Part shown: one piece after another, positions 5,045 through 28,739 of the stretch
How positions within the stretch are numbered: position 1 is the first letter of the stretch
How the letters are laid out: each line of letters starts with the position of its first letter
Assembly: GCF_018598185.1 (NCBI RefSeq)
Contig: NZ_JAHESC010000035.1
Coordinates: 1 to 64,000 of the forward strand
Length of the DNA stretch: 64,000 nucleotides
Origin: Dawidia soli
GTDB lineage: Bacteria > Bacteroidota > Bacteroidia > Cytophagales > Cyclobacteriaceae
Direction: 5' to 3'
Program-made: the position numbers and the translations under genes
Notes under the pieces: model-generated
Told to the model about the DNA's origin: nothing
The model's database searches: none
Seen by the model: only the letters and a program-made list of their open reading frames with translations

Positions 5045-5064
5045 GGAAGTGATCGCTTTGTCGA

Positions 5065-5877: not shown

Positions 5878-5908
5878 AGTGTAAGGGTACGGTATGGATA
5901 TTATGGGT

Positions 5909-9317: not shown

Positions 9318-9330
9318 GGATCGGTCGTTC

Positions 9331-10299
9331 TTAGTATAGAATCAGCCGTTTGTCGTTCAGCTCGTATTGACATTGCATTACCGTGCTGAGCTCTTTCAGC
9401 ACAGTGGCCAGCGCAGGGTTGTTGGTGAACCGGCCGGTAAAACGATGCGTCGCAATTTTCTTATTCTGAATAAGCACCGGTATGTTGTACCAGCGCGCGA
9501 GAATGGCGGCTACTTCGGACAGCGACTCGTCTTTAAAGATGAGCGTGCCATGCCGCCAGGCAGTATAGTTAGCCGCGTATACGCTTTGTACAGTCAGCGG
9601 CTTTCCATTCGGCAGACAAGTAACACCCTGATCGCGGGTAAGCAATACATGATAACCCGCTGCATCCGATACACGTACTTTGCCTTCCTCTACCGTCACG
9701 GTGGTGCTGGCCTCATCCGGGTAAGCCTTTACACGAAAGACGGTGCCGAGGACGCGCACCGTCGTTCTGGACGTCAACACAGAGAAAGGACGCGAAGCAT
9801 CCCGGGCCACTTCCAGATAGGCCTCGCCCGAAAGATGAACGATGCGCGCCGTGTCGGTAAACTTCTCCGGTATCGTCAGTGTGCTCCCCGAGTTCAGGTG
9901 CACGATCGTGCCGTCGGGCAATGTCAGGCGGATTTTTTCACCACGGGCAGCCTGTATCACGCGGCTGGCCGCCAGCGCAGGCGGGGTGTCGGCAGCTACA
10001 AACGCGGAGCGATACTGATAGAGGATACCCATCGCGGCGGCGATAAGCAAAAGCGACGCCGCGATCTGCAACGGCAGCCGGCGGTGTATGGCCCTTTTAG
10101 GCTGTGCAGGCGGTTGCACCTGTTTCCAGATCTCATTCTGTAATGCACGTTTGTCGACACCGCGAAAAACATCGTGATCATCCGGCAACGGCGCGGGGGC
10201 ATGCTTACCAGCCAATGCCTGCATAACAAGCGCCGCTTCGTCGGGTGTACAAAGCCCTTTAAAATATTTCTCCAGCAGTTCCGGTGTGATGTTTTCCAT
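9331..10299 (-). CDS. FecR-family anti-sigma factor
   Basis: Inner-membrane anti-sigma factor that holds the ECF sigma until the STN domain of the receptor signals. The start is placed at 10299 (MENITPELLEKYFKG), the usual N-terminus, rather than seven codons upstream. A transmembrane helix (LPLQIAASLLLIAAAMGILY) lies near residues 78-97. The periplasmic FecR domain follows (IRLTLPDGTIVHLNSGSTLTI, VRVLGTVFRVKAYPDE), then a C-terminal STN-like DUF4974 region (WYNIPVLIQNKKI). It stops 13 bp before the receptor start. Confidence 0.9.
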   Translation of the reverse strand: MENITPELLEKYFKGLCTPDEAALVMQALAGKHAPAPLPDDHDVFRGVDKRALQNEIWKQVQPPAQPKRAIHRRLPLQIAASLLLIAAAMGILYQYRSAFVAADTPPALAASRVIQAARGEKIRLTLPDGTIVHLNSGSTLTIPEKFTDTARIVHLSGEAYLEVARDASRPFSVLTSRTTVRVLGTVFRVKAYPDEASTTVTVEEGKVRVSDAAGYHVLLTRDQGVTCLPNGKPLTVQSVYAANYTAWRHGTLIFKDESLSEVAAILARWYNIPVLIQNKKIATHRFTGRFTNNPALATVLKELSTVMQCQYELNDKRLILY

Positions 10300-10359
10300 A
10301 CGCGGCGGGATAATGCCCACGTATGACTATACCCCGGAACTGCGATCACCACAGCGCGC

Positions 10360-10389
10360 TTTTTAGGAAAACTGCGATTTTCCTAAAAA
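10360..10389. promoter_or_regulatory. Perfect 12-bp-arm palindrome upstream of fecR
   Basis: TTTTTAGGAAAA (10360-10371) and TTTTCCTAAAAA (10378-10389) are perfect inverted repeats around a 6-base centre, about 60 bp before the anti-sigma start. It could be an operator, or a hairpin ending the sigma transcript and separating sigma from anti-sigma expression. Confidence 0.55.
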
Positions 10390-10506
10390 ATACCTTTAAC
10401 AGGGGAGGAACAGGGAACCAGGACCGGGTAGGCTATTGCGCTGGCTGGCTAGCCCCGTATACCGGTTTCCCTATGTCAGGGATAGCGCATGTATATGGCT
10501 GGTATA

Positions 10507-10594
10507 GCTTTGATACGGGTAATATAGGGCTTTGATACGGGTAATGTAGGGCTTTGATACGGGTAATGTAGGGCTTTGATACGGGTATGATACG
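10507..10594. repeat. 22-bp tandem repeat array between sigma and anti-sigma genes
   Basis: GCTTTGATACGGGTAAT-type units begin at 10507, 10529, 10551 and 10573, each exactly 22 bp apart. A degenerate fifth remnant (ATACGGGTGAT) follows. 22 is not a multiple of three, and open frames across it are not conserved, so it is non-coding. The period is about two helical turns, placing repeated sites on the same face of the DNA. It lies in the 334-bp gap that separates the sigma factor gene from fecR. Confidence 0.85.
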
Positions 10595-10633
10595 GGTGAT
10601 CTCCCTTTTTGCAGCCTGGGAGCGGGGGAGTTG

Positions 10634-11185
10634 CTACGATTCCTGCAGCTCTTTTGCCAGGTACCGCAACGCGTTTCCAATATGATATTCCACCGTACTG
10701 GTGGAAATATTCAGCCGTTCGCTGATCTCTTTATGTGTCAGGTTCTCACTACGGCTCATCAGGAACACCCTCTTGCACTGACAAGGCAACTTATCCACCA
10801 ATTCCCCCAACCGGTCTTCCAGCTGCCGGTACAACACCTGGTTCTCCGTGCAATTTTCCTCCCCGCAGTAATCCAGAAAGAAACAATCGAGGTGCCGCTT
10901 CTCCGTTTTCAGATTCCGGTAATAATTATAGGTTTGATACCGGGCGGCCTTGCCGAGGTAGTCGCTTAGCGTACCGGCCACCAGCAACGATTCGCGTCTT
11001 TCCCACAACGACTTGAAGATGTCCTGGGTCATCTCGCGCGACTCTTCCCGCGCGCGGGTGCCGCGGTAGCAGGCAGTATATACCGGGTCCCAATAGCGAT
11101 CGAAGATGATCTTAAAAGCCCGCTCGTCGCCGGCTTGCAGCAGGCGCAGAAGACGTTCATCGCTATATAGATTCAGTAATGACAA
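10634..11185 (-). CDS. ECF RNA polymerase sigma factor (Bacteroidetes expansion family)
   Basis: Sigma-70 family factor of 183 residues. Region 2 spans about residues 22-90 (AFKIIFDRYWDPVYT ... EMTQDIFKSLWERRE) and region 4 about 125-178 (LPCQCKRVFLMSRSENLTHKEISERLNISTSTVEYHI, a helix-turn-helix). Several cysteines fall in the linker (DCFFLDYCGEENC). It is expected to be held by FecR at the membrane and to drive the haem locus when the receptor binds its ligand. It is the first gene of the locus, but an unusually long repeat-bearing gap separates it from fecR. Confidence 0.9.
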   Translation of the reverse strand: MSLLNLYSDERLLRLLQAGDERAFKIIFDRYWDPVYTACYRGTRAREESREMTQDIFKSLWERRESLLVAGTLSDYLGKAARYQTYNYYRNLKTEKRHLDCFFLDYCGEENCTENQVLYRQLEDRLGELVDKLPCQCKRVFLMSRSENLTHKEISERLNISTSTVEYHIGNALRYLAKELQES

Positions 11186-15752: not shown

Positions 15753-16199
15753 CTATGGCACCAACACCAGGGGGATGGAAAGACGGCCCAACAGGTCGTC
15801 GAACATTTCCTTGTTGACGGCGTGCATGTTTTTGTCCATGACCAGGAACGAGATGTGGTTGTGGCGTAGCTGGTCTGTAATACGGTCGGCCATGAAACCG
15901 ATCTCCATCTGAAAGTCGTAGGACAACAACGGGTCTGCCAGGTATTCTTTTTCAAGTACCCGGAAATGCTGGAGCGAGTCTTCCTCGATCTTCTTTTTCA
16001 TTTCCAGGGCGTGGCCCTGCGTAGGTTTGATGAGCCGGTAGGTATAGAGAATGGTGAGGTGCTCATCGAACTGCCGGGCAAGGCTAACGGCCCACCGCAG
16101 GGCATGCAGCGACGACTCCGAAAAGTCGACCGCGCACAGGATCCGGCGGCTGGTAAGGGGGATATTTTCAGTATGCGTTTTCACACGTTGGGTATTCAC
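15753..16199 (-). CDS. Universal stress protein (UspA family)
   Basis: Single UspA domain, 148 residues: the first strand RRILCAVDFSESSLHALRWAVSLA and the final strand IPLVLVP are typical. The Gly-rich ATP loop is weak here (MDKNMHAVNKEMFDDLLGRL), so it may not bind ATP. The start codon is GTG at 16199. It is divergent from the FixL-like kinase gene, and a CRP/FNR-type palindrome lies between them. Usp genes are frequent members of low-oxygen regulons, so it may be co-regulated. Confidence 0.85.
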   Translation of the reverse strand: MNTQRVKTHTENIPLTSRRILCAVDFSESSLHALRWAVSLARQFDEHLTILYTYRLIKPTQGHALEMKKKIEEDSLQHFRVLEKEYLADPLLSYDFQMEIGFMADRITDQLRHNHISFLVMDKNMHAVNKEMFDDLLGRLSIPLVLVP

Positions 16200-16254
16200 G
16201 TACGAACTTAGGCCTCTTTTAAAAGGTTATCGCCGATTTAAGTCAATCCTCTAG

Positions 16255-16268
16255 CTGATTTTTGTCAT
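16255..16268. promoter_or_regulatory. FNR/CRP-type palindrome before the kinase gene
   Basis: CTGAT-TTTT-GTCAT has the dyad TGAt(N4)gTCA, the same pattern as the sites before ccoI and ccoNO. It lies 35 bp before the kinase ATG (16303) and 56 bp from the uspA GTG, so it could serve either direction. It suggests autoregulation by the receiver-CRP protein downstream. Confidence 0.6.
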
Positions 16269-16302
16269 ATTCGTGTTTGCCGGTAATTACAATACTTGTA
16301 CA

Positions 16303-17577
16303 ATGGAAAACGCACTTCCTATATCCTTTGAGTCGAACGATGCCTTTCGGGAAATTTTCCAAAGCATGTCGGAGGGTATCCTGATGGTCGACGAGGCCGG
16401 AAAGATCATCACCGCCAATGCCGTGGCCGAGCACCTCTTTGGTTATGAGAAGAACGAGATGAACGGCATGTCGCTGGAGGCTCTGTTGCCTGAGCGTTAC
16501 CGCGGCCGGCATTTATCCTTTCGCCGGGAATTTAATGCACACCCCGAGCCACGCCGCATGGGCGTGGGCCGCGACCTGACGGCCTTGCGAAAAGATAAAC
16601 GCGAGTTCCCTGTGGAGATCAGCCTCAGCTATACACACCTGAAGGGAAAGCTGTACGTCATGGCCTTCATCAGCGATATCACCCAACGCAAAAAATCGGA
16701 AGATGCGCTGCGGCGTAGCGAAGAGCAGTTGATCGTCTATGCCGTCGAGCTGGAGAAGAAAGTAGAGAGCCGCACCCAGGCGCTGAATGGCATGGTGGAG
16801 GCGTTGGAGAAGGAAGTGCAGGACCGTAAGCGTGCGGAAGAAGACGCACACCACGCGCTGGGCAAAGAGCGGGAGCTGAACGAGCTGAAGTCGAAGTTTG
16901 TGTCGATCGCCTCGCACGAGTTTCGTACGCCGCTCAGCGCGATACTAAGCTCCGCATCGCTCATCCAGCAGTACAGCGAAAGGCAGGACCGGGAGAAAGT
17001 ACACAAGCATGTGCAGCGCATCAAGACATCGGTCAATCATCTTACATCGATCCTCGACGACCTCCTGTCGCTCGGCCGCCTTGAAGAAGGCAAGATCGAA
17101 GTGTCGCGCGAGCGCATAGAGCTCGCGCCGTTTGTGCAAGAGGTGAAAGAAGAGATCAGCCCGGTCCTGAAAGAGCAGCAACAGATCCAGCTGCTTTGCC
17201 AGCCTACCGAGCAGCCGATCTATTCAGACCCGCGCATCCTGCGCCACATTCTTTTTAATCTGATCTCCAACGCCAGCAAATATTCCGATGCAGGCAAACG
17301 CATTTTTATCGAATGTCAACGGTATACAGACCGGGTCTCCTTTTCTGTACGCGACGAAGGCATCGGTATACCCCTAGACGATCAGAAACATTTGTTCGAT
17401 CGGTTCTTCCGGGCGAGCAATGCCGGCCAGGTGCAGGGCACAGGCCTGGGGCTCAACATCGTGAAACGCTATGCCGACCTGATCGGCGGCAGCATCAGCT
17501 TTACCAGCGAAGCCGGAACCGGCAGTATATTCACCCTTGTAATTCCAGATAAGTATGAAGAAAATTCTGTTGATTGA
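16303..17577 (+). CDS. FixL-like PAS sensor histidine kinase
   Basis: Histidine kinase of 424 residues (start at MENALPISFESN). The PAS domain spans about residues 12-125 and resembles the FixL haem domain: PERYRGRHLSFRR, then RRMGVGRDLTALRKDKREFP. His70 and Arg90 are 20 residues apart, the same spacing as the haem-binding His and signalling Arg of rhizobial FixL. A coiled-coil linker (about 130-195) follows, then HisKA with phospho-acceptor His205 (ASHEFRTPLSAI) and HATPase_c with N (NLISNASKYSD), G1 (DEGIGIP) and G2 (GTGLGLNIVKRY). There are no membrane segments, so it is cytosolic. It overlaps its response-regulator gene by 23 bp. Haem binding is inferred, since PAS relatives without haem can keep the histidine. 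Confidence 0.85.
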   Translation: MENALPISFESNDAFREIFQSMSEGILMVDEAGKIITANAVAEHLFGYEKNEMNGMSLEALLPERYRGRHLSFRREFNAHPEPRRMGVGRDLTALRKDKREFPVEISLSYTHLKGKLYVMAFISDITQRKKSEDALRRSEEQLIVYAVELEKKVESRTQALNGMVEALEKEVQDRKRAEEDAHHALGKERELNELKSKFVSIASHEFRTPLSAILSSASLIQQYSERQDREKVHKHVQRIKTSVNHLTSILDDLLSLGRLEEGKIEVSRERIELAPFVQEVKEEISPVLKEQQQIQLLCQPTEQPIYSDPRILRHILFNLISNASKYSDAGKRIFIECQRYTDRVSFSVRDEGIGIPLDDQKHLFDRFFRASNAGQVQGTGLGLNIVKRYADLIGGSISFTSEAGTGSIFTLVIPDKYEENSVD

Positions 17578-18616
17578 AGACAACGTCGACGTGCGTGAGA
17601 ACACCGGCGAGATCTTAACATTGGCCGGCTATGACGTCGTCACAGCACCCAACGGCAAGAACGGCGTAGAGCTGGCCATGCAAGAAAAACCAGACCTCAT
17701 TATCTGCGACATCATGATGCCCGAGCTGGACGGCTACGGTGTGCTGCACATCCTGAGTAAAAAGGACGAGACCGCCGGCATCCCGTTTATATTCCTGACG
17801 GCCAAGACCGAAAAGACCGACATACGCAAAGGCATGAATCTGGGTGCCGACGACTACCTCACCAAGCCCTTTGACGATACCGAGCTCCTCAACGCCATCG
17901 AAGCCCGCCTGCGCAAAAGCGACCTGCAACGCAAGCTCTATGACACAACCGAAGAAGGGCTCGAAAACTTTATTCGCGACGCCCGCCAGGTATTACGCCT
18001 GGAGGATCTGTGCAAAGACAAAAAAATAAAACCGTTTAAGAAGAAAGCAGAGATCTTTGCAGAAGGCGATACGCCGCTGTATGTATACTTTGTGCGTACC
18101 GGCAGCGTGAAAGTCTTCAAGTCGCACCCCGACGGAAAAGAATTGATCACCAACATCTATAATGCCAACGACTTCTTCGGCTTCGAGGCGGTATTGTCGG
18201 GCAATGTATACCACGAGTCGGCCATTGCCATGACGGACTGCGAATTGATCGTCATACCCCGTCACGATTTCCTGACGCTCTTCCAGGCACACCCCGATGT
18301 ATCGTCCAGCTTTATTTCGCTGCTCTGCAAGAAAGTAGCCGAGCAGGAGAACCAGCTTTTACACCTGGCCTATAACTCCGTGCGCCAACGTACGGCCGAA
18401 GCGTTACTCAAGGTAGAGCAGCTGCGCGACGCCCGGCAGAACATACAGATCTCGCGTGACGACCTGGCCAAGATCGTCGGCACGGCGTCGGAGTCGGTGA
18501 TCCGCGTACTGTCGGATTTTAAGGACGAAGGACTGATCGAGATCGAAGGCGGCAAGATTCGCATCATGCAGGCTGCCAAGCTGGAGAAAGTGGTGCGCTG
18601 GAACGTAGCGCGTTAG
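17555..18616 (+). CDS. Response regulator: receiver fused to CRP/FNR-type activator
   Basis: Protein of 353 residues with three parts. The receiver (1-120) has acidic pocket Glu8/Asp9 and phospho-acceptor Asp52 (IICDIMMPELDGYG). A cyclic-nucleotide-binding-like barrel (about 150-265) follows (FAEGDTPLYVYFVRTGSVKVF). The C-terminal Crp-type winged helix (about 280-340) has recognition helix GTASESVIRVLSDF, where E-S-V-x-R is the pattern that reads TGA half-sites. There is no FNR-type iron-sulphur cysteine cluster, so oxygen sensing must come from the kinase. This combines the FixJ receiver and FixK output in one chain. It likely controls the adjacent cbb3 cluster, whose promoters carry matching palindromes. 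Confidence 0.9.
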   Translation: MKKILLIEDNVDVRENTGEILTLAGYDVVTAPNGKNGVELAMQEKPDLIICDIMMPELDGYGVLHILSKKDETAGIPFIFLTAKTEKTDIRKGMNLGADDYLTKPFDDTELLNAIEARLRKSDLQRKLYDTTEEGLENFIRDARQVLRLEDLCKDKKIKPFKKKAEIFAEGDTPLYVYFVRTGSVKVFKSHPDGKELITNIYNANDFFGFEAVLSGNVYHESAIAMTDCELIVIPRHDFLTLFQAHPDVSSSFISLLCKKVAEQENQLLHLAYNSVRQRTAEALLKVEQLRDARQNIQISRDDLAKIVGTASESVIRVLSDFKDEGLIEIEGGKIRIMQAAKLEKVVRWNVAR

Positions 18617-19293
18617 CGGCACACCACGATATCCGTTCCCGGATTCGCGGCGACGGGCGCGGGATGTGCGAAGTACACCCGCGCAATAAGCAGCACAGCC
18701 GATACGACCAGTAACCCCGTGGTCAATGCACGGGGGGAGACAGGAAAGGAACGGGCGACCCACTGGAATACCGAGGGCAGCCCGATCATGGCCGGCGCGG
18801 TGCCCAGGCCGAACAGCAACATAAAGTTAAAACCATCGAGCGGACCCCGCAGCGTGATGCAATAAGACCACGCTACCGCGGTAAGACCACACGGCAGCAG
18901 CCCGTTTAACATGCCGAGCCATGTCGTTGTCAGCAGGCCTTTCCGCTGAAGCAACACGCCAAACCGTATTTTGAGAAACGATGCCAGCCGGACCCAGGCG
19001 CTGGAGAGCACGGGTATTTTCCAGGCATATGTGCCGGTAACAGCCATCAGCAATAATGCCAGGCCGATGACGAGGGACGTTATCGTTTGGAAATTGCCCA
19101 ATGGCAACCAGGCGCCTACGCTGCTGATGGTGGCGCCGATGACGGCGTAAGTAAAGATCCTGCCGCCATTGTACAGCAAGCGCGCACGCCACACGCGGGC
19201 GTTGCGCACGGTGGCCGCCATGGCCAGGGGACTGCACATGCCCGCGCAGTGAATACTTCCTGCCAGGCCTATGATCAGCGCGGTGAGCCACAT
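18613..19293 (-). CDS. Sulfite exporter TauE/SafE-type membrane protein (cbb3 cluster)
   Basis: Inner-membrane protein of 226 residues with about six helices, of the UreH/DsbD_2-like branch of TauE/SafE. His-Cys-Ala-Gly-Met-Cys at residues 15-20 in the first helix, and a second Cys in LLPCGLTAVAWSYC, look like metal or thiol ligands. Relatives commonly close cbb3 operons next to ccoH, so a role in copper supply or cytochrome assembly is likely; the transported species is unknown. It is the last gene of the cluster, and its stop codon overlaps that of the converging regulator by 4 bp. Confidence 0.8.
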   Translation of the reverse strand: MWLTALIIGLAGSIHCAGMCSPLAMAATVRNARVWRARLLYNGGRIFTYAVIGATISSVGAWLPLGNFQTITSLVIGLALLLMAVTGTYAWKIPVLSSAWVRLASFLKIRFGVLLQRKGLLTTTWLGMLNGLLPCGLTAVAWSYCITLRGPLDGFNFMLLFGLGTAPAMIGLPSVFQWVARSFPVSPRALTTGLLVVSAVLLIARVYFAHPAPVAANPGTDIVVCR

Positions 19294-19303
19294 CGGTATA
19301 GTG

Positions 19304-19732
19304 TTAAAGGTGAACGATCTCTTCGAGATAAAATTCGCGGCCCTGCATGCGCCACGTCATACGTGCGCGATACATGCCCTGCGGCAGGTTGCTACCGAAT
19401 ACTTGTGTCGTCTCGGGCGTAGCCTGGAGCACAAAGGTTCTGTCGGCGGCCGCGTTGGCCGGGCAGAACAGCGTTAGCTTGCCCGCTTCAATGTTGGGCA
19501 GCTGGTCGAACGAAAGCGTTAGCCCGTGCTGCGCCGATGCGGAAATCACAGGTTTGTCAGGCAATGCCGCCGTGTTGGCCATGCGCTCGATCTGGTCCTG
19601 ATATTTCAGCTCCTCCTGGTAATAATCTTTTGTAACCAGGCTTACGTCCTGCCGCATGCAGACAGTGACCAGAACAGCAATGAATGTTGCGAACAAGATA
19701 AAGGCCAGAATAATACTTTTTCCCCAGTTCAT
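19304..19732 (-). CDS. ccoH: cbb3 oxidase assembly protein CcoH/FixH
   Basis: FixH-family protein of 142 residues with one N-terminal membrane helix (SIILAFILFATFIAVLVTVCM) and the conserved segment LVTKDYYQEELKYQDQIERM. The rest is a periplasmic beta domain. CcoH helps to assemble and stabilise the cbb3 oxidase. It is placed between ccoG and the TauE-like gene, as in other cbb3 clusters. Confidence 0.9.
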   Translation of the reverse strand: MNWGKSIILAFILFATFIAVLVTVCMRQDVSLVTKDYYQEELKYQDQIERMANTAALPDKPVISASAQHGLTLSFDQLPNIEAGKLTLFCPANAAADRTFVLQATPETTQVFGSNLPQGMYRARMTWRMQGREFYLEEIVHL

Positions 19733-19745
19733 AATAGTAAAGGTT

Positions 19746-21209
19746 TTAGTGTGACTGTTCGTCTTTCAGACGGCTGTTGACGTCCGCCGAAGAGCGTACC
19801 GGGCCGATGAATTTTACTTTGGCGTTGCCCAGGAGTTTGCCGGTGTCGCGATGGTATATTCCCAGGTATACTACTGTACGGGCCGTTTTTATTTCATCTT
19901 CGGGTATGCGGATAAAAAACACCGTCTTCAGCAAGCCCTCCGCCGGCAGCAGGATGTTCTTGCCATCTACCTTTTGCAGCTTGGCAAAAGACGGAGACTC
20001 TACCCGCACCGTTACCGGTACATCATCAAAGGATTTATTGATGAACTCGACATTGTACAGGTTCGAGATATAGCCGTCGCCGGGCTTTTGATACAAGGTG
20101 CCCGGTACCTTCAGCACGGTCGTTTCCACATCGGAGCGGGTGGCCAGTGTAAATCCTAACAACGCGATGATTACGAGCAGCACGCCGGAATAGACCATCA
20201 GGCGCGGCGTGAATATTTTCGTGCTGCCCTTTTCGATCGCGCTGGCGGAAGCATAGCGGATCAGTCCCGTGGGTTTATTCACCTTCAGCATCACGTCGTC
20301 GCAGGCATCGATGCAGGCCGTACAGTTCACACATTCCAGCTGCGTGCCGTTGCGGATGTCGATGCCGGTAGGGCAGACGTGAACGCACAGCTTGCAATCC
20401 ACGCAGTCGCCCTTGGGCGCCTCTACGGTATGTTTCTTGCGCAGTTGTCCGCGCGGCTCGCCGCGCAGCCAGTCATACGCCACAACGATCGATTCTTTGG
20501 TAAGAAGCACGCTTTGCAAGCGGCCGTACGGGCATACCGCTATACAGGCCTGCTCGCGAAAGCGTGCGTAAACCCCATAAAAGATCACCGTAAAGGCTGC
20601 CAGACCGCTGAAGCCCGCCAGGTTGTCCAGCGGCGACTGGCCGATGATGGCCAGCGTTTGGTCCGTGCCGATCATGTAGGCCATGACGGTGTGCGCAATG
20701 ATGACCGAGATTACGATAAAGATCGCGTGCTTGGCCGTCTTCTTCCATACTTTGCCAAAGCTGAGCGGTGCCGCGTTCAGCCGGCGCTGAGCCGGCGCGT
20801 CGCCTTCGATCCAATATTCGATCTTGCGGAAGACCATCTCCATAAACAACGTCTGCGGGCACATCCACCCGCACCATACACGCCCGAACGCCAGCGTAAA
20901 GACGATGATGAAAATAAAGAACGCCAGGAGGATCAGCGCGAGCAGCACAAAGTCCTGCGGCCAGAAGGCCTGGCCCAGGATGACGAACTTACGCTCGAAT
21001 ACATTGAGCAGCAGGAACGGCTGACCACCGATGCGAAGAAAAGGACCGGCGAAGAGTATCGTCAGCAAAAGCACGGTAACGGCAACGCGCCAGCGGTGAA
21101 AGGAGCCCGAGGGTTTCTTGGGATAGATCCAGACACGCTTGCCTTGTCCATCCACCGTCGCAATGGAATTCCGGAACTCTTCGTTGAATTGATATACTTC
21201 GTCGGTCAT
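19746..21209 (-). CDS. ccoG: Cytochrome c oxidase accessory protein CcoG (FixG/RdxA)
   Basis: Membrane iron-sulphur protein of 487 residues. The N-terminal part has about five helices with CPQTLFMEMVFRKIEYWIEG and CIAVCPYGRLQSVL. A double 4Fe-4S ferredoxin motif follows near residues 270-310 (CVDCKLCVHVCPTGID, CVNCTACIDACDD). The C-terminal third is a periplasmic Ig-like domain (IG-like fold of CcoG). CcoG reduces Cu(II) for cbb3 assembly. It lies 20 bp after ccoP. Confidence 0.93.
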   Translation of the reverse strand: MTDEVYQFNEEFRNSIATVDGQGKRVWIYPKKPSGSFHRWRVAVTVLLLTILFAGPFLRIGGQPFLLLNVFERKFVILGQAFWPQDFVLLALILLAFFIFIIVFTLAFGRVWCGWMCPQTLFMEMVFRKIEYWIEGDAPAQRRLNAAPLSFGKVWKKTAKHAIFIVISVIIAHTVMAYMIGTDQTLAIIGQSPLDNLAGFSGLAAFTVIFYGVYARFREQACIAVCPYGRLQSVLLTKESIVVAYDWLRGEPRGQLRKKHTVEAPKGDCVDCKLCVHVCPTGIDIRNGTQLECVNCTACIDACDDVMLKVNKPTGLIRYASASAIEKGSTKIFTPRLMVYSGVLLVIIALLGFTLATRSDVETTVLKVPGTLYQKPGDGYISNLYNVEFINKSFDDVPVTVRVESPSFAKLQKVDGKNILLPAEGLLKTVFFIRIPEDEIKTARTVVYLGIYHRDTGKLLGNAKVKFIGPVRSSADVNSRLKDEQSH

Positions 21210-21229: not shown

Positions 21230-22174
21230 TTATAGCGATGCCTGCACCGCCGTGCTGTCGGGCGCCGCGTGCGTTTCTTCAAAAAGGTCGCCTTGCGGCG
21301 CCTTGCCGTCAGCCGGGTTGCTGCCTTGCAGGCTCATGACATAAAAGGTTACATCGCGCACATCCTGCGGGCTCAGCGTTTTGCCCCACGCCGGCATACC
21401 CTTTTCGACAACGCCCGTCTTAATGGTGTTGAAGATGTTTTGAATGCCCCCGCCGTGGAGCCAGTACGCGTCGGTCAGGTTCGGGCCGATGGTGTTGCCG
21501 CCACCGTCTGCGCGGTGACACGAGCCGCAGTTGTTGTTGGCAAAGACACCCTTGCCTTTTTCCAGGATCGCCGCATCGGCGATATACTTCAGCGCGTTGA
21601 CGTCGATCTCTTCCACCGGTTGGGCAGCCTTACGCTGACGCGCCACCTCGTTGGCAACCGCCACCTCCTGGTCATACTCTTCCTGCTGCAGCGGCAGGTT
21701 GCCATAAAGGTGGTAAACAACGAGGTATGCCACGGCCCAGACGGCGGTGCCGGCAAAGAGCCACTTCCACCACGGCGGCAGGTGGTTGTCCAGCTCGCGA
21801 ATGCCGTCGAAGTCGTGGCCCATGTCGATATCCTGCTCCTGCGTCAGCGGTACAGACGCGTTGGCCTTCTGCACAAACTGCTGCCAGAAGCTCCCGCGCG
21901 GTACGTACGCAATACCATGCTTTTCGGCGCGTTCTTTTTCGCTCAGGTTGATCAGCACGTTCAGCACGCGCAGCAACGAGATACAGACCACGACCACCAG
22001 CATGGCCACGATCGCGGCAAACAGTGACAGGGCATAGAGTGGCATCAGCGGGTGGTTGACCGGATCGTCCCAAAAGCCCGGGGCGGTGGCTGCGGAAAGA
22101 GCATTGGCGGGGGTGGTGGCCAGCAGGCCTCCTGTAAGCAGCGCAATAGAAGAATATTTCATACCGCTATACAT
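21230..22174 (-). CDS. ccoP: cbb3 oxidase subunit III, CcoP, mono-haem
   Basis: Membrane-bound c-type cytochrome of 314 residues. A long N-terminal region with two helices (PLYALSLFAAIVAMLVVVVCISLL and the cbb3_N helix WWKWLFAGTAVWAVAYLVVYHLY) precedes one cytochrome c domain with CGSCH near residue 215 and the axial Met in GMPAWG. Proteobacterial CcoP carries two haems; I see only one CXXCH here, which is usual in Bacteroidota relatives. Start may be M1 or M5. Its start overlaps the end of ccoQ by 8 bp. Confidence 0.9.
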   Translation of the reverse strand: MYSGMKYSSIALLTGGLLATTPANALSAATAPGFWDDPVNHPLMPLYALSLFAAIVAMLVVVVCISLLRVLNVLINLSEKERAEKHGIAYVPRGSFWQQFVQKANASVPLTQEQDIDMGHDFDGIRELDNHLPPWWKWLFAGTAVWAVAYLVVYHLYGNLPLQQEEYDQEVAVANEVARQRKAAQPVEEIDVNALKYIADAAILEKGKGVFANNNCGSCHRADGGGNTIGPNLTDAYWLHGGGIQNIFNTIKTGVVEKGMPAWGKTLSPQDVRDVTFYVMSLQGSNPADGKAPQGDLFEETHAAPDSTAVQASL

Positions 22175-22361
22175 TAGAAGCGTTGGAGATTGCGTCGCCG
22201 CCGGAAGTGTCCACAGGCAGATTCTTCATCTTGTCGATGAACTTGCGGTCGGCCGTGAACACATACCACAGCAGGCACAGAAAGAAGAGGAAGAAGATAA
22301 CGAATGACACCACGGGCCAGATCGCTATGTTGTCGATGTTTTGCAATACGTTCTTATACAT
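22167..22361 (-). CDS. ccoQ: cbb3 oxidase small subunit CcoQ-like
   Basis: Protein of 64 residues with a single helix (VVSFVIFFLFFLCLLWYVFTADRKFIDKM), typical of CcoQ/FixQ. It is placed exactly between the catalytic fusion gene and ccoP, overlapping the latter. It stabilises the oxidase complex. Confidence 0.85.
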   Translation of the reverse strand: MYKNVLQNIDNIAIWPVVSFVIFFLFFLCLLWYVFTADRKFIDKMKNLPVDTSGGDAISNASNV

Positions 22362-22372
22362 ATAGGTAAGTG

Positions 22373-24517
22373 TTATGGATTGGAACTGAGCACATCTTCG
22401 TCGGCCGGGGCCGCCTGGATGTCCGTACCCAGGCGTTGCAGGTAGGAGATGAGTGCGATGATCTCGGCGTCGGGCGCTACTTCGATGCCGTCGGCCTTCA
22501 GCGACGCCGTAATGGATTGCGCTTGTTTGTCGAGCTCGTCGTTGGCGATCTCTTCAAAACCGTCTTCATACGGCACGCCCAGTGTGCGCAACGCCGTAAT
22601 CTTGTTGCGGGTTTGGGTTTTGTCGATAGACTGTTCGGACAGCCACAGGTAGGCCGGCATGATCGAACCCGTAGACACTGCGTCGGGGGCCAGCATGTGG
22701 TTGTAGTGCCAGCTGTTGGAGTACTTGCTGCCGACGCGGTGCAGGTCCGGACCGGTGCGTTTGGAACCCCACAGGAACGGGTGGTCGTAGACGAACTCCC
22801 CTGCCTTCGAATATTCACCGTAGCGCTCGGTCTCTGAACGGAAGGGGCGAACCATCTGGGTGTGGCAGTTCACACAGCCCTCGCGGATATAGATGTCGCG
22901 GCCATGCAGCTCGAGCGGCGTGTAGGGTTTGACGCTACTGATCGTAGGGACATTGGACTTCACCAGGAACGTAGGGATCATTTCCAATGCGCCCCCGATC
23001 AGAATAGCGATCAAGGTCAGCACGGTAAAGAGTACGGGTTTGTGCTCCAACAGGCGGTGGTGCCAGCCACCGCTGGTAGCCACATAGTCTTTTTTGAGCG
23101 GCATGGCTTCCGCGTCTTCGTTTGCCAGGAAGCTGCCGGCATAGGCCGTCTTGATCAGGTTGTATGTCATCAGGATGGCACCGCTGAGGTACAGCGCGCC
23201 ACCGATCGCACGCAGGGCGTGCAGGGGCAGGATCTGCACCGTGGTCTCCAGGAAGTTCTTATACATCAGGAAACCCTCGGGATTAAATTCTTTCCACATC
23301 AGGCTTTGCACGACACCCGATACATACATGGGCAGTGCATAGAAGATGATCCCCAGCGTACCCAGCCAGAAGTGTACATTGGCCAGACGGGTCGAGTAAA
23401 GTTTGGTGCGCCACATGCGCGGAACCATCCAGTACAGCATGGCAAAGGTAAGGAAGCCGTTCCAGCCCAACCCGCCCACGTGTACGTGCGCCACGATCCA
23501 ATCGGTAAAGTGGGCGATTGCGTTCACGTTCTTCAGCGACAGCAGCGGACCTTCGAGCGTAGCCATGCCGTAAGCGGTAATGGCCACGACCATGAATTTC
23601 AGAACAGGGTCTTCGCGCACCCGGTCCCATGCGCCGCGCAGCGTCAGCAGGCCGTTGAGCATACCGCCCCACGACGGCGCAATGAGCATCAGCGAAAACA
23701 CGGTGCCGAGAGATTGCGCCCAGTCCGGCAGGGACGTATACAGCAAGTGGTGCGGGCCGGCCCAGATATAGATAAAGATGAGCGACCAGAAGTGAATGAT
23801 GGAGAGCCGGTACGAGTACACCGGGCGATTGGCAGCCTTGGGCAGGTAGTAATACATCAACCCCAGGAAAGGCGTGGTCAGGAAGAAGGCCACCGCGTTG
23901 TGACCGTACCACCATTGTACCAGGGCATCCTGAACACCGGCATAGGCCGAATAGCTTTTAAAGAGGCTCACCGGCATTTCGAACGAGTTGACAACGTGCA
24001 GTACCGCCACCGTAATAAACGTGGCGATATAGAACCAGATGGCCACGTACATATGGCGCTCGCGCCGTTTGATGATCGTGCCCAGCATGTTCCAGCCGAA
24101 GACCACCCAGATTACCGTGATGGCGATGTCGATCGGCCATTCCAGTTCGGCATATTCCTTGGACGTCGTGAAACCCAGCGGCAACGTGATCGCCGCTGCG
24201 AGAATGATAAGTTGCCACCCCCAGAAGTGAAGCCAGCTGAGACGGTCGCTGAACATGCGGGTCTTGAGCAGACGCTGCATGGAGTAGTAGACGCCGGCAA
24301 ACATCGCGTTGCCCACAAAGGCAAAGATGATGGCATTGGTGTGCAAAGGCCGTATCCGCCCGAAAGACGTATACTGCAGATCGAAGTTAAAGACCGGGTA
24401 GACCAGCTGAATTGCCGCCGTCAGGCCCACCAGCATTCCCACCAACCCGAAGGTCACAGTGGCAATGATAAAGGCTTTGACGATCCGGTTGTCGTAACTG
24501 AATTTGTCAGGTTCCAT
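22373..24517 (-). CDS. ccoNO: cbb3-type cytochrome c oxidase, CcoN-CcoO fusion
   Basis: Catalytic core of the high-affinity terminal oxidase, 714 residues. Residues about 1-470 are CcoN with about twelve helices, haem- and CuB-ligand histidines (WWYGHNAVAFFLTTPFLG, WAGPHHLLYT, DWIVAHVHVGGLGWNG). A linker leads into CcoO, with one helix and a single c-haem site CVNCH near 546, followed by RSETERYGEYSKAGEF. Separate genes are the rule in Proteobacteria; this fusion is a known Bacteroidota arrangement. The promoter region carries a perfect FNR-type palindrome. Confidence 0.95.
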   Translation of the reverse strand: MEPDKFSYDNRIVKAFIIATVTFGLVGMLVGLTAAIQLVYPVFNFDLQYTSFGRIRPLHTNAIIFAFVGNAMFAGVYYSMQRLLKTRMFSDRLSWLHFWGWQLIILAAAITLPLGFTTSKEYAELEWPIDIAITVIWVVFGWNMLGTIIKRRERHMYVAIWFYIATFITVAVLHVVNSFEMPVSLFKSYSAYAGVQDALVQWWYGHNAVAFFLTTPFLGLMYYYLPKAANRPVYSYRLSIIHFWSLIFIYIWAGPHHLLYTSLPDWAQSLGTVFSLMLIAPSWGGMLNGLLTLRGAWDRVREDPVLKFMVVAITAYGMATLEGPLLSLKNVNAIAHFTDWIVAHVHVGGLGWNGFLTFAMLYWMVPRMWRTKLYSTRLANVHFWLGTLGIIFYALPMYVSGVVQSLMWKEFNPEGFLMYKNFLETTVQILPLHALRAIGGALYLSGAILMTYNLIKTAYAGSFLANEDAEAMPLKKDYVATSGGWHHRLLEHKPVLFTVLTLIAILIGGALEMIPTFLVKSNVPTISSVKPYTPLELHGRDIYIREGCVNCHTQMVRPFRSETERYGEYSKAGEFVYDHPFLWGSKRTGPDLHRVGSKYSNSWHYNHMLAPDAVSTGSIMPAYLWLSEQSIDKTQTRNKITALRTLGVPYEDGFEEIANDELDKQAQSITASLKADGIEVAPDAEIIALISYLQRLGTDIQAAPADEDVLSSNP

Positions 24518-24563: not shown

Positions 24564-24604
24564 TCGCCCCCCACCGGCCCCGCATGACCCCCGTTAGCCC
24601 CTAT

Positions 24605-24620
24605 CCTGATTTTTATCAGG
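24605..24620. promoter_or_regulatory. FNR/CRP-type operator before ccoNO
   Basis: CCTGAT-TTTT-ATCAGG is a perfect 16-bp palindrome with the TGAT(N4)ATCA core of FNR/CRP-family sites. It lies about 95 bp upstream of ccoNO. If transcription starts just after the AT-rich box at 24555-24563, the centre is near -60, a usual activator position. Confidence 0.75.
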
Positions 24621-24702: not shown

Positions 24703-26073
24703 TCAAATAGCCTTGCTAAACACCGGTGCCGTCCCCACCTGCAGCCGCCGCATCCGCTTATCAAACACATGGCAAACATTCCGCACAAACGCCCTTCCCA
24801 TCTCCGTAACAAACAACCCTTCCTGCGCAATCTTCACGATCCCATCCGCCGCCAACGCGCGCAGTCCCAACATAACCTCTTCATCCGAAGCCTGCTCTAA
24901 CAAAGCAGCACGAAGCTTTCCCTGGCAGGCAATCTCCAGGATACACGTCCGTAACAACCTATCCTCATCCGTCTGCACATGCCCTTTCAGCAGGGGCAGT
25001 TGATGCTCTGCCACGGTTGCCTCATACTCCTCGACGTTTTTACTATTCTGTCCATACGCATACCCTGCGTCGCTGATGGCCGAAGCCCCCAGCCCCACCA
25101 ACAGACGCGTGTTACTCGTAGTATACCCCATAAAATTCCGGTGCAACGTCCCTTCCTGCGCCGCGTTATACAACGAATCGGTGGCCAATGAAAAATGATC
25201 CATCCCGATATCGTGGTACCCCGCTTCGTGCAGCAGACGTCGTCCCGTTTCGTAGAGCTGGCGCTTGACGGTATCGTTCGGCAGGTTAGCATCCTCATAT
25301 CCCCGCTGCCCCGGCTTCAGCCAGGGTACGTGCGCGTAACTATAAAAAGCGATACGATCCGGCCGCAGTTGGATCACCTGCCGGAAAGTTTCGGCAATCG
25401 TCTCCACGGTTTGATACGGTAGCCCATAGATCAGATCAAACCCGATCGAATCATACCCGATCTGCCGGCTGTTCCGCACGGCCGCGTCGACATTCGCAAA
25501 AGGTTGTATCCGGTGTATAGCCGTTTGCACCGTCAGGTCCAGATCCTGTACGCCATAGCTCACCCGCCGGAACCCCAGGTCGTACAACGCCTGCAAATGC
25601 GCGGCGGTGGTATTGTTGGGATGTCCCTCAAAGCTGAACTCCCGCGCGGGATGCAGCGTGCACGATTCGAGGATCGTGTGCAAAAGCGTATGCAGGTTCT
25701 GCGGGCTGAAGAATGTAGGCGTTCCGCCGCCCAGGTGCAGCTCCCGCAGCACGGGCTTCTTTCCGAAGATATACCGGTACAGCTCCCACTCCGTCAATAC
25801 GCTGCGCAAATAGCGTTCCTCGACAGCGTGGTTCTTTGTGATCCGTGTATTGCAGGCACAGTACGTGCACAGGCTCTCGCAAAAGGGCAGGTGTATATAT
25901 AAACTAATCCCCCGGCAGTCGTTCGTTTCATCAAACGCTTTCTCGACGGCCTTCACCCACGACCCCGCCGAGAAGGCACTGACATTCCAGCAGGGCACGG
26001 TAGGATAGCTCGTGTACCGGGGCACCGGCACATCGTATTTTTTGAGCAGCGAAGTTTCGGGAGCAGCGATCAT
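24703..26073 (-). CDS. hemN: Oxygen-independent coproporphyrinogen III oxidase (radical SAM)
   Basis: Radical SAM enzyme of 456 residues that converts coproporphyrinogen III to protoporphyrinogen IX without oxygen. The CX3CX2C cluster motif is CESLCTYC, with the following ACNTRI typical of true HemN; GGGTPTFF and the HemN C-terminal domain (KLRAALLEQASDEEVMLGLRALAADGIV) are present. It shares a 4-bp ATGA overlap with ccoS, so it is translated from the ccoI-ccoS-hemN message. Pairing it with cbb3 assembly supplies haem under low oxygen. Confidence 0.95.
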   Translation of the reverse strand: MIAAPETSLLKKYDVPVPRYTSYPTVPCWNVSAFSAGSWVKAVEKAFDETNDCRGISLYIHLPFCESLCTYCACNTRITKNHAVEERYLRSVLTEWELYRYIFGKKPVLRELHLGGGTPTFFSPQNLHTLLHTILESCTLHPAREFSFEGHPNNTTAAHLQALYDLGFRRVSYGVQDLDLTVQTAIHRIQPFANVDAAVRNSRQIGYDSIGFDLIYGLPYQTVETIAETFRQVIQLRPDRIAFYSYAHVPWLKPGQRGYEDANLPNDTVKRQLYETGRRLLHEAGYHDIGMDHFSLATDSLYNAAQEGTLHRNFMGYTTSNTRLLVGLGASAISDAGYAYGQNSKNVEEYEATVAEHQLPLLKGHVQTDEDRLLRTCILEIACQGKLRAALLEQASDEEVMLGLRALAADGIVKIAQEGLFVTEMGRAFVRNVCHVFDKRMRRLQVGTAPVFSKAI

Positions 26074-26234
26074 GATACAGGTTTGGAATCGTCTTTTTTC
26101 GGATCAAAAAGCATACGCACGGAGGGAGTATACATGTCGTCGTATTGGCCGCTTTTGATGTTCCAGAAGAACACCGCCAGGAATGTCAGCGCAATGGCGA
26201 GGCTGATCGATATGAGCAATACGATGATGATCAT
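26070..26234 (-). CDS. ccoS: cbb3 oxidase maturation protein CcoS
   Basis: Small gene of 54 codons, easily missed. The product begins MIIIVLLISISLAIALTF, continues with FFWNIKSGQYDDMYTPSVRML and ends in a charged tail. One N-terminal helix followed by the SGQYDDM-type motif is the CcoS signature. CcoS is needed to insert cofactors into cbb3 oxidase. It starts 10 bp after the ccoI stop, and its TGA overlaps the hemN ATG. Confidence 0.9.
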   Translation of the reverse strand: MIIIVLLISISLAIALTFLAVFFWNIKSGQYDDMYTPSVRMLFDPKKDDSKPVS

Positions 26235-26244
26235 GGTAAAATAG

Positions 26245-28647
26245 TTAGACTGATTTCTTTTTTAAGATGCGCCGTGCGGCAGCGTTCACCGCGATAGACG
26301 AAAAGCCCACCACGCTCACACTGCTCAACGGCATGAGGATCGCCGCGACCAGCGGCGTAAGGTGTCCCGTCACCGCAAAGGTCAGCGCCACGGCGTTGTA
26401 CATAAACGAGATCGTAAAGGCGATCTTCAGGATCCGGGTAGAAGCCTTCGACAGCTGCATGAACCGGTCGAGCGACTGGATCTGGCTGCCGTGCAGGATA
26501 CCGTCACACGCCGGGGTAAAGATGCCGGTGTCGTCCGTTACCGCCAGGCCCACGTCGGCCTGCTTCAGCGCGCCGGCGTCGTTCAGGCCGTCGCCCACCA
26601 TCAATACTTTTTTACCCTGCTGTTGCAGGCGGCGGATATAGTCCAGCTTGTCGTGCGGGCTTTGGTTAAAGTGCAGTTGTACGTGGTCACCAAAGAGCGT
26701 ATACATTTTAGCGCGGTCACCATCGGTATCACCCGACAGCAACGCCACACAACGGCGCCCCAGCCGGCCGAGCATGCCCTTCAAATCTTTCCGCACCGAC
26801 GCCTGTACGGCCATGTGGCCGCGCAGCTCACCGTCGATCGCCACAAACACGTGGCCCGATGGCGTGGCCATCAGATCACGGCTGCCCACGGTGAACGAAG
26901 CCGAGCCGATGCTGATCGTATGGCAGGCAACAACACCTTCAATGCCCTTACCGGGAATTTCTTTGAAGCCGGTCACCACGTCGTCGGTATGCAGGCGAAT
27001 GGCCGCGGCGATCGATTTACTGAGCGGATGTGTGGAGTAGCTCGTCAGCAACTTGATCCAGGCATACTCTTCTCCCGCGATGTTGCCGACAAACGACACG
27101 TCGGGTCGATCGCCGAGCGTGATCGTGCCCGTCTTGTCAAACACCACGGCGTCGACAGCCGCCAGGCGTTCGATCACATCGGCATTCTTCAGGTATAAAG
27201 CATGGCGCCCCATCACACGCAGCATGCTGCCGTAGGTAAATGGCGCCGCCAGCGCCAGCGCGCACGGGCAGGCTACCATCAGCACGGACGTGATGACCAG
27301 CCACATACTGGACGGCGCCGTATAAAACCAATAGCAGGCCGTGAGCACGGCAATCCCCAACACGATCCACGTAAAACGCCGTGCTGCACGGTCAATGATC
27401 TTCTGATAGTTGCGCTCGTCGGTCTTGCGAAAAGCGTCGTTGTTCCAAAGGCTGGTAAGATGGCTTTGCGAAGTAGGCTTCTCTACTACGAACGAAGCCG
27501 GCGGCCCGATGACCCGCCCGCCGGCATATACCATGTCACCCGGGTGGGCCAGCACCGGGCGCGCCTCGCCGGTAACAAAACTATAGTCGATGTGAGCGGA
27601 CGCGTCCAGCAACACGCTGTCGGCAGGGATGATCTCCAGGTTGCGAATGCGGATCGTATCGCCCGGCGTAAGTTCATAGATCACGACGGGTTTCCACTGC
27701 CCGCCCACCTGCTTTTGTACCGCCAGGGGGAAATACGAAGTGAAGTCGCGATCAAAAGCCAGGCTCTCGTACGTTTTGCTTTGAAACCACCGGCCGATCA
27801 GCAGGAAAAAGACCAACCCGGTAAAAGAGTCGAGGTAGCCCGGGCCGGTAGCAGTAATAATGTCGTATGCGCTGCGCAGAAACAACGCCAGCAGCCCGGC
27901 CGCGATGGGCACGTCGATGTTGATCTGTCGCTGTTGGAAACTCTTCAGTGAAGCCTGGAAGTATCCCGCCGCGCTATAGAAGAATACCGGTATCGAGAGC
28001 GTCAGGTTAAGCCACGAGAACACGCGCATCAGGCCGGCGTCGGTGGCATCCAGGCCCAGGTACTCCGGAAAGCTGAAAAGCATGACGTTGCCAAAGCAAA
28101 AGCCCGCGAGGGCCAGCTTCAGCACCGCTTGCTTGCTGACACCCGTCTTCATCGGCGTGTTACGCTCCAGGTTAACAGACGGCGCATAGCCGATGTCGGC
28201 GAGCCATTGGCCCACGCGGCTGAGCGCCATCGTCTGTGGGTTGAAGTCGATGGATACCGTCTTGCGCGCAAAGTTCACTTCCGAATGTAAGAAGCCCGCA
28301 TCGACCCGTTGCAAGTTCTCCAGCAGCCAGATACAGGACACACAGTGAATGGCGGGAATATAAAATTGCACGCTGGCGAACTCCGCGGAGTCGAACGTTA
28401 CTAACTTTTTCCGCACACTCTTCTCGTCGAGGTAAGCATATACATCGTCGCCCGCAACGGCATGCTGGCTGCCCGGCGCTTTATCGAGGCTATAATACTC
28501 ACACAGGTCGTGGGTGTTGAGGATCTCGAAAACCGTCTGGCATCCCGGGCAGCAAAAAGGTTTGTCATCCAGCAGGAGGACCTCGCTTTCGCAGACCTGA
28601 CCACAGTGGTAGCAAGTTGTAACAATCTGTTTTTCCGCAGCGACCAT
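26245..28647 (-). CDS. ccoI: Cu-exporting P1B-type ATPase CcoI/FixI
   Basis: Heavy-metal P-type ATPase of 800 residues that delivers copper for the CuB centre of cbb3 oxidase. The N-terminus has a Cys-rich segment (CYHCGQVCES, CCPGCQTVF) and then an HMA-like domain with HCVSC. The transport motif CPC lies near residue 457, the phosphorylation motif DKTGT near 499 and GDGLNDAGAL near 686. About eight helices. It is the first gene of the minus-strand cluster, with an FNR-type palindrome upstream. Confidence 0.93.
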   Translation of the reverse strand: MVAAEKQIVTTCYHCGQVCESEVLLLDDKPFCCPGCQTVFEILNTHDLCEYYSLDKAPGSQHAVAGDDVYAYLDEKSVRKKLVTFDSAEFASVQFYIPAIHCVSCIWLLENLQRVDAGFLHSEVNFARKTVSIDFNPQTMALSRVGQWLADIGYAPSVNLERNTPMKTGVSKQAVLKLALAGFCFGNVMLFSFPEYLGLDATDAGLMRVFSWLNLTLSIPVFFYSAAGYFQASLKSFQQRQINIDVPIAAGLLALFLRSAYDIITATGPGYLDSFTGLVFFLLIGRWFQSKTYESLAFDRDFTSYFPLAVQKQVGGQWKPVVIYELTPGDTIRIRNLEIIPADSVLLDASAHIDYSFVTGEARPVLAHPGDMVYAGGRVIGPPASFVVEKPTSQSHLTSLWNNDAFRKTDERNYQKIIDRAARRFTWIVLGIAVLTACYWFYTAPSSMWLVITSVLMVACPCALALAAPFTYGSMLRVMGRHALYLKNADVIERLAAVDAVVFDKTGTITLGDRPDVSFVGNIAGEEYAWIKLLTSYSTHPLSKSIAAAIRLHTDDVVTGFKEIPGKGIEGVVACHTISIGSASFTVGSRDLMATPSGHVFVAIDGELRGHMAVQASVRKDLKGMLGRLGRRCVALLSGDTDGDRAKMYTLFGDHVQLHFNQSPHDKLDYIRRLQQQGKKVLMVGDGLNDAGALKQADVGLAVTDDTGIFTPACDGILHGSQIQSLDRFMQLSKASTRILKIAFTISFMYNAVALTFAVTGHLTPLVAAILMPLSSVSVVGFSSIAVNAAARRILKKKSV

Positions 28648-28725
28648 AACCGGAGTGCTTTTTTGCGCACCGTCAAAAGTACCCCGCCCACCGCGTTGGC
28701 CCGGTGATGATACTCAACCGGACGC

Positions 28726-28739
28726 CTGATCTTTGTCAG
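28726..28739. promoter_or_regulatory. FNR/CRP-type palindrome before ccoI
   Basis: CTGAT-CTTT-GTCAG is a perfect dyad of the same pattern as the sites before ccoNO and the kinase gene. It lies about 80 bp upstream of the ccoI start on the minus strand. Confidence 0.65.

Follow-up and report, generated by a model that had tools for sequence, protein, structure and literature searches.

Most of what is known about oxygen control of the cbb3 oxidase comes from proteobacteria. The closest described arrangement to the one reported here is the FixL-FixJ-FixK system of rhizobia, in which a haem-PAS kinase and a phosphorelay act on targets that include cbb3 genes, with a final regulator of the CRP/FNR type that has no Fe-S cysteines. 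Among other haem-PAS sensors, DosP has the PAS fold and the proximal His, yet it is a cyclic-di-GMP phosphodiesterase and not a kinase. A further relative, FG214 of Fimbriimonas ginsengisoli, is an HTH-PAS one-component protein with a mainly bis-His haem, which responds to redox state and ligands and has His156 as its proximal haem ligand (PMC13060918). The locus considered here lies in a window of 64,000 nucleotides (the whole stretch of DNA analysed) from Dawidia soli, and encodes a sensor kinase and a response regulator beside a cbb3 gene cluster. Like the rhizobial system, it combines a predicted haem-PAS kinase, a putative phosphorelay, cbb3 genes as likely targets and a CRP/FNR-type final regulator without Fe-S cysteines. 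Unlike that system, (i) one protein stands in the place of FixJ and FixK and has no GerE/LuxR-type output; and (ii) the candidate operators consist of TGAYN4RTCA palindromes paired at a 22-bp spacing, and the kinase of the window retains only part of the FixL pocket. The genes of the locus and their main features are as follows.

15753..16199, minus strand: universal stress protein gene (usp), divergent from the kinase gene, with a candidate operator common to both (Pfam)
16303..17577, plus strand: PAS-HisKA-HATPase sensor kinase, ATG start at 16303 with a GTG alternative at 16273 (Pfam)
16345..16680, plus strand: PAS domain of predicted haem type (Pfam, PDB sequence matches, structure model)
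17555..18616, plus strand: response regulator with receiver (Asp52), cNMP-type barrel and CRP-type HTH in a single chain (Pfam)
17555..17577, plus strand: kinase/regulator gene overlap of 23 bp (ORF coordinates)
18613..19293, minus strand: gene for a DsbD_2-type membrane protein, part of the cbb3 cluster and running towards the regulator gene (Pfam and the loci of relatives)
19304..19732, minus strand: FixH/ccoH (Pfam)
19746..21209, minus strand: ccoG-like gene (named by eye from sequence and conservation in relatives, without a Pfam scan)
21230..22174, minus strand: ccoP, FixP_N plus cytochrome c (Pfam; below its NCBIfam cut-off)
22167..22361, minus strand: 64-aa ORF in the ccoQ position (size and place only)
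22373..24517, minus strand: fused ccoNO (Pfam; above the NCBIfam cut-off)
24703..26073, minus strand: hemN (above the NCBIfam cut-off)
26070..26234, minus strand: 54-aa ORF in the ccoS position (size and place only)
26245..28647, minus strand: ccoI-type P-type ATPase (Pfam)

All domains scored above their Pfam cut-offs, both in the kinase (PAS, residues 15-126; HisKA; HATPase_c) and in the regulator (Response_reg, 4-116; cNMP_binding, 159-246; HTH_Crp_2, 278-345), and no membrane or periplasmic sensor domain was found in the kinase by the Pfam scan. The features of a two-component pair are present, with an H-box His (His205, numbered from the ATG at 16303), a receiver Asp and adjoining genes; the latter overlap by the 23 bp given in the first-pass annotation of this DNA and are probably coupled in translation. 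That annotation began the region at position 16255, which lies in an open frame 5′ of the kinase gene. Its placement of the pair beside a cbb3 cluster was borne out by the ccoNO, ccoP, ccoG, ccoH, hemN and ccoI genes of the window, and by the presence of cbb3 genes near the regulator in many relatives. Elsewhere in the window, at 6666-11185, is a row of TonB-dependent receptor, FecR-like and sigma factor-like genes, named from sequence only.

The PAS domain of the kinase was compared with proteins of known structure by single-query, profile and model searches. With the window PAS as single query against the PDB, 14 haem-PAS sequences (FG214, FixL, and DosP) scored 43 to 66 bits and the next match 21 bits, the top match being FG214 with FixL close behind. 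When a profile built from the PAS domains of 50 kinases was used, those 14 sequences reached 84 to 120 bits and the next, a LOV domain, 50 bits; in this search FixL and DosP outscored FG214, with FixL-like rows contained in the profile. Foldseek ranks 1 to 26 of the window PAS structure model (pLDDT 88) were found to be haem PAS chains only (FixL, FG214, and DosP). Ranking by Z also placed haem proteins first, with LOV and other PAS domains close behind, such that the fold alone is of little weight for haem. The alignments paired His70 with the proximal His of the F helix, FixL His200 and FG214 His156, in agreement with the earlier proposal that it is the equivalent of the FixL ligand. This position was occupied by His in 56 of the 58 kinases adjoining a receiver-CRP regulator, the exceptions being L144 and the kinase next to the second regulator of the window genome, and in all 18 kinases linked to cbb3. 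It is also one of only three invariant columns in the PAS alignment A3, whose 50 rows (the window, an orphan paralogue and 48 others) share 25-68% identity with the window domain. Nine of the 58 rows (L132 and L145, which are duplicates, and L035, L036, L125, L144, L149, L150, and L154) are left out of A3, and since L144 has no His, the 50/50 was helped by choice and 56/58 is the fairer count. Background PAS rows had a His at this position in 9 of 64 cases, at least four of the nine being fragments of the same kinases or of the orphan paralogue, and a gap in 28 of 64. A further sample was drawn by searching 60 genomes of the class with the PAS profile; 37 matched, 31 of them new, and 20 of the new genomes were chosen among the best-scoring. 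All 20 kinases have His at the His70 position, 17 adjoin a full-length receiver-CRP gene, and 7 have cbb3 genes close by; the three others show a partial match (L349), a short match close to the end of a contig (L356) or none (L352) in place of the full-length neighbor. As these kinases were chosen by profile score, this test is separate and not blind. Overall, the sequence, profile and model matches suggest that the kinase PAS very likely holds haem and senses oxygen or redox state. A second kinase in the same genome, on contig 111 (162892-163314; L132, L165), has a PAS 69% identical to that of the window and adjoins usp genes; it has no receiver-CRP gene beside it, and a paralogous receiver-CRP gene lies about 9 kb from this orphan.

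The first-pass annotation had placed His70 and Arg90, 20 residues apart, in the context of the FixL haem domain. Counting from the ATG at 16303 confirmed the spacing, and Arg90 is the equivalent of the distal Arg220 of FixL. The wider context was kept only in part, as the equivalents of the FixL pocket residues Arg206, His214, and Ile215 are Glu76, Arg84, and Arg85 in the window; the equivalents of His200, Arg206, His214, and Arg220 are kept together in seven relatives. With this partial pocket the window kinase is grouped with haem PAS domains and not with full FixL. At the Arg90 position, Arg was found in 36 of the 50 rows of A3 and in only 3 of the 20 kinases of the further sample, where Met (8), Ile (3), Leu (3), and Val, Phe, and Tyr (one each) make up the remainder; thus, Arg90 was rejected as a family marker. 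The frequency of Met, Leu, and Ile among relatives, with Met serving as the distal ligand in DosP, would suit a kinase responding to redox state or to a different haem ligand (NO or CO), in the manner of the bis-His FG214, and not to oxygen in the manner of FixL, as would the rank of FG214 as nearest solved sequence in the single-query search. We consider this reading unlikely: Arg90 is kept in the window and its closest relatives, the likely targets, cbb3 and hemN, make up a low-oxygen set, and FG214 falls behind FixL and DosP once the profile, with its FixL-like rows, is used. The earlier claim that the kinase is the oxygen sensor is in this way very likely to the extent of a haem-PAS sensor of oxygen or redox state, and is tempered by the frequent replacement of Arg90 elsewhere.

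The combination of receiver, CRP-type barrel and CRP-type HTH in one protein, as first described, was recovered by the Pfam scan, and Asp52 was found to be invariant across 26 aligned regulators. The cNMP-type barrel and Crp HTH assign the regulator to the FixK/CRP-FNR superfamily, with the NCBIfam FixK and CRP models matched only below their cut-offs. Glu72, Arg82, and Ser83 of CRP have roles in its cAMP pocket. When compared with E. coli CRP and FNR, the regulator lacked these cAMP residues as well as the N-terminal Fe-S cysteines of FNR, and kept the recognition-helix Glu and Arg. Its cysteines lie at positions 51, 153, 229, and 258 and hence form no FNR-type cluster motif, as had been stated at the outset. 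The recognition Glu and Arg are also kept by the own-genome paralogue, a second receiver-CRP copy on contig 111 that is 51% identical, and by five other CRP-like proteins, while a CX2C before the barrel was found in 0 of 20 other CRP-like proteins of this genome (two of 24 matches left out). The structure model of the regulator had a pTM of 0.46, and its domain arrangement was not drawn upon. The Pfam scan detected no FixJ-type (GerE/LuxR) DNA-binding domain in the regulator. The suggestion that FixJ and FixK are merged here may therefore describe how the protein works and not its descent, as this domain is missing and the CRP half adjoins an FNR-type group; the sequences are better described as a fusion of a receiver with a CRP/FNR-type protein akin to the FNR-like proteins of Bacteroidota.

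Receiver-CRP fusions beside cbb3 genes, for which a database search had been proposed, were found. Full-length receiver-CRP proteins are encoded at 48 or more places in at least 43 of 296 genomes of the phylum, both numbers being lower bounds as at most seven candidates were scored per genome, and all of these genomes belong to the class of the window (73 genomes in the sample). We collected 64 loci with flanks, the window included; several are short, and L145, which duplicates L045, was dropped from the regulator tree and from the upstream-motif and pair-spacing counts. A histidine kinase lies directly upstream of the regulator in 58 of the 64 loci (one a duplicate), the two genes overlap in 34 loci, and 10 pairs out of the 58 measured, that of the window among them, share an overlap of exactly 23 bp. 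At 21 of the 64 loci cbb3 genes are located within about 10 kb of the regulator, 18 of these having an adjoining kinase, and hemN alone is nearby at 5 more. Among the 38 sampled genomes having both, the regulator and a FixP_N match are within 12 kb in 15 and within 34 kb in three more, and the cbb3-linked loci are scattered over the regulator tree. The presence of the regulator was not associated with that of cbb3 in genomes of the class (38/43 versus 25/30, p 0.73), and a tie between the two at this level was rejected. Two kinase-regulator pairs are on plasmids (L035, Hymenobacter swuensis; L036, Runella rosea), that of L035 adjoining truncated haemoglobin genes and ccoS/ccoN. The lack of a characterised example, remarked upon earlier, agrees with our search of the open literature, in which the accessible text of the papers, a weak form of evidence, yielded no characterised receiver-CRP regulator; none is described in the available parts of PMC8510549, PMC4999443, and PMC13060918. 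The kinase/receiver-CRP pair itself is not unusual, and as judged from these genomes is a class-wide module.

The three palindromes mentioned in the first-pass annotation exist, at 16256-16267, 24607-24618, and 28727-28738, and lie in the promoters of kinase/usp, ccoNO and ccoI. They have the form TGAYN4RTCA, and each was found to be half of a tandem pair of sites 22 bp apart (in pairs of this kind the spacing is sometimes 23 bp):

16234..16267, unstranded: candidate tandem operator CGATTTAAGTCA-N10-TGATTTTTGTCA (one mismatch), between usp and the kinase gene
24585..24618, unstranded: candidate tandem operator TGACCCCCGTTA-N10-TGATTTTTATCA (one mismatch), upstream of ccoNO
28705..28738, unstranded: candidate tandem operator TGATGATACTCA-N10-TGATCTTTGTCA (one mismatch), upstream of ccoI

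The tandem pairing of palindromes at a 22-bp pitch is new in this analysis. Two species of one other genus of the family have retained both the kinase/usp block CTGATTTTTGTCATA and the ccoNO block CCTGAYAAAAATCA; their ccoNO sites are at -103 and -104, compared with -102 in the window. Of the regions 100 bp or longer upstream of kinase, ccoNO and ccoI genes, 42 of 67 contained TGAYN4RTCA; for the remaining genes in these loci the count was 157 of 450. With 179 chances of finding a second site (at most one mismatch) beside a perfect one, such a site occurred 38 times at 22 bp and 8 times at 23 bp, against 0 to 2 times at each of the remaining spacings between 12 and 40 bp; pairs of two perfect sites were counted from both ends. 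The pair is also present at other genes of these loci (84/638), a count in which upstream stretches can overlap and some pairs recur. We suggest that the tandem pairs are operators probably used by the regulator.

The search for pairs was extended to whole genomes. In the window genome 14 pairs at 22 bp (at most one mismatch) were found, compared with 0 for the control patterns (reversed, at 25 bp, and at 20 bp). All 14 avoid the bodies of called genes: the three window pairs are intergenic, and among the other 11, three fully and three by 1 to 13 bp overlap the first codons of a gene with an uncertain start. Adjoining genes encode universal stress proteins (at four places), a PPDK-type enzyme, and OsmC, BON, MlaE, beta-CASP, and L,D-transpeptidase proteins. 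Perfect pairs were detected in 28 of the 43 genomes with the regulator and in 10 of the 253 without it (Fisher p 3e-20), the latter comprising 4 of 30 genomes of the class and 6 of 223 others of the phylum; within the class the association held at Fisher p 1e-5. Twelve of the 15 regulator genomes that lack a perfect pair are in one family (f7), which groups with the named Flavobacteriaceae rows in the regulator tree. The single-site motif TGAYNTTTRTCA was also tried as a regulon marker (45 places versus 5 reversed) and rejected, as 28 of the 45 places are inside ORFs, where codon usage inflates the count, and the 22-bp pair was used instead; CTGAYN4RTCAG gave 46 places versus 4. Contig 104 has a cluster of four tandem pairs within 7 kb (4421-11119; L233, L409), and genes close by encode a universal stress protein, a PPDK-type enzyme, an OsmC-like protein and an MlaE permease. 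Another pair (C27:117305; L204) is located between divergent genes for a 394-aa membrane-like protein and a 598-aa protein, neither of which had a match in the Pfam scan, and a single TGACATTTATCA site (C59:51950; L222) precedes the glutamyl-tRNA reductase gene of haem synthesis by about 46 bp.

Ten genomes have perfect pairs and no receiver-CRP gene. In the four of these that were examined (G273, G150, G271, and G017), and in G146, which has both, we found a CRP-type protein of 238-254 aa with an N-terminal CX2C. The recognition helix of these five proteins (L402, L403, L404, L406, and L407), GTA-S/T-E-S/T-x-IR, is near-identical to that of the regulator; three have a FixP_N match no more than about 11 kb away, and perfect pairs are present in the stretches around L402 and L407 and absent from those around the other three. 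Two genomes (G095 and G265) encode a related protein without the CX2C and have no perfect pair. These FNR-type proteins of Bacteroidota resemble the regulator in recognition helix and, for L402 and L407, in tandem operators; they differ from it in having no receiver and no kinase and in carrying, to judge from their cysteines, a putative Fe-S sensor within the protein itself. They group next to the receiver-CRP proteins in the tree of CRP halves. That tree has open forks and long branches (E. coli CRP, own_L289, and own_L288), with E. coli CRP and own_L289 falling among the receiver-CRP rows, and a sister relationship of the CX2C group to the receiver-CRP halves is only a suggestion. The same tandem pairs in FNR-type genomes indicate that the operator may predate, or be independent of, the receiver; with the pitch shared, the idea that receivers cause the 22-bp spacing is weakened. 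The same finding would accord with the pairs of the window genome being bound by another of its CRP/FNR-type proteins, either the contig 111 paralogue or a one-component protein, with the kinase pair acting elsewhere, and the recognition Glu and Arg are indeed kept in several of these proteins. We regard this alternative as improbable because perfect pairs track the receiver-CRP gene among genomes, the promoter of the kinase operon itself holds a pair whose main palindrome is kept in the two species of the other genus, and none of the 20 other CRP-like proteins has the CX2C. The tandem pairs are thus still best assigned, in probability, to the receiver-CRP regulator. A low-oxygen regulon may be common to the two kinds of sensor, as the few genomes at hand suggest. 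A wider proposal, to which we would give slightly less than even weight, is that Bacteroidota have one low-oxygen regulon marked by 22-bp double palindromes and served by related CRP/FNR-type proteins in which the sensor has been exchanged, being in some lineages an Fe-S cluster of the protein itself and in others a receiver under the control of a haem-PAS kinase; two dimers would sit next to each other and bind cooperatively, and may be bridged by the receivers where the system is of the two-component kind.

Our preferred interpretation, which we hold to be probable, is that the locus encodes an oxygen- or redox-responsive two-component switch running from a haem-PAS kinase through a receiver-CRP regulator to the tandem operators of the cbb3 set. 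It draws on the domains, the coupling of the two genes, membership in the haem-PAS family, the near-invariant His, the linkage to cbb3, and the operators with their genome association, all read from the DNA. We infer that the kinase PAS would be loaded with haem b through His70, and that oxygen would be the signal: when it is scarce, the kinase would autophosphorylate on His205, being off with oxygen and on without it. The phosphate would pass from His205 to its predicted partner Asp52, and the phosphorylated regulator would be the protein that binds the TGAYN4RTCA pairs 22 bp apart, with two neighboring dimers probably occupying one face of the helix. Its effect would be to activate and not to repress (i) the ccoNO operon; (ii) ccoI-ccoS-hemN; (iii) universal stress proteins and other genes; and (iv) perhaps its own operon. 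An ordinary, non-haem PAS that resembles FixL by chance, for which the His in some background PAS rows and the incomplete FixL pocket might speak, is highly improbable given the score gaps in both PDB searches and a His70 that is invariant across rows as distant as 25% identity. Overall, the observation in the first-pass annotation is confirmed and its interpretation supported in part. If correct, this interpretation would provide a specific candidate for the oxygen control of cbb3 across a whole class of Bacteroidota, with the likely operators named to the base, and an apparent example of a change of oxygen sensor with the DNA-binding half and its operator retained.
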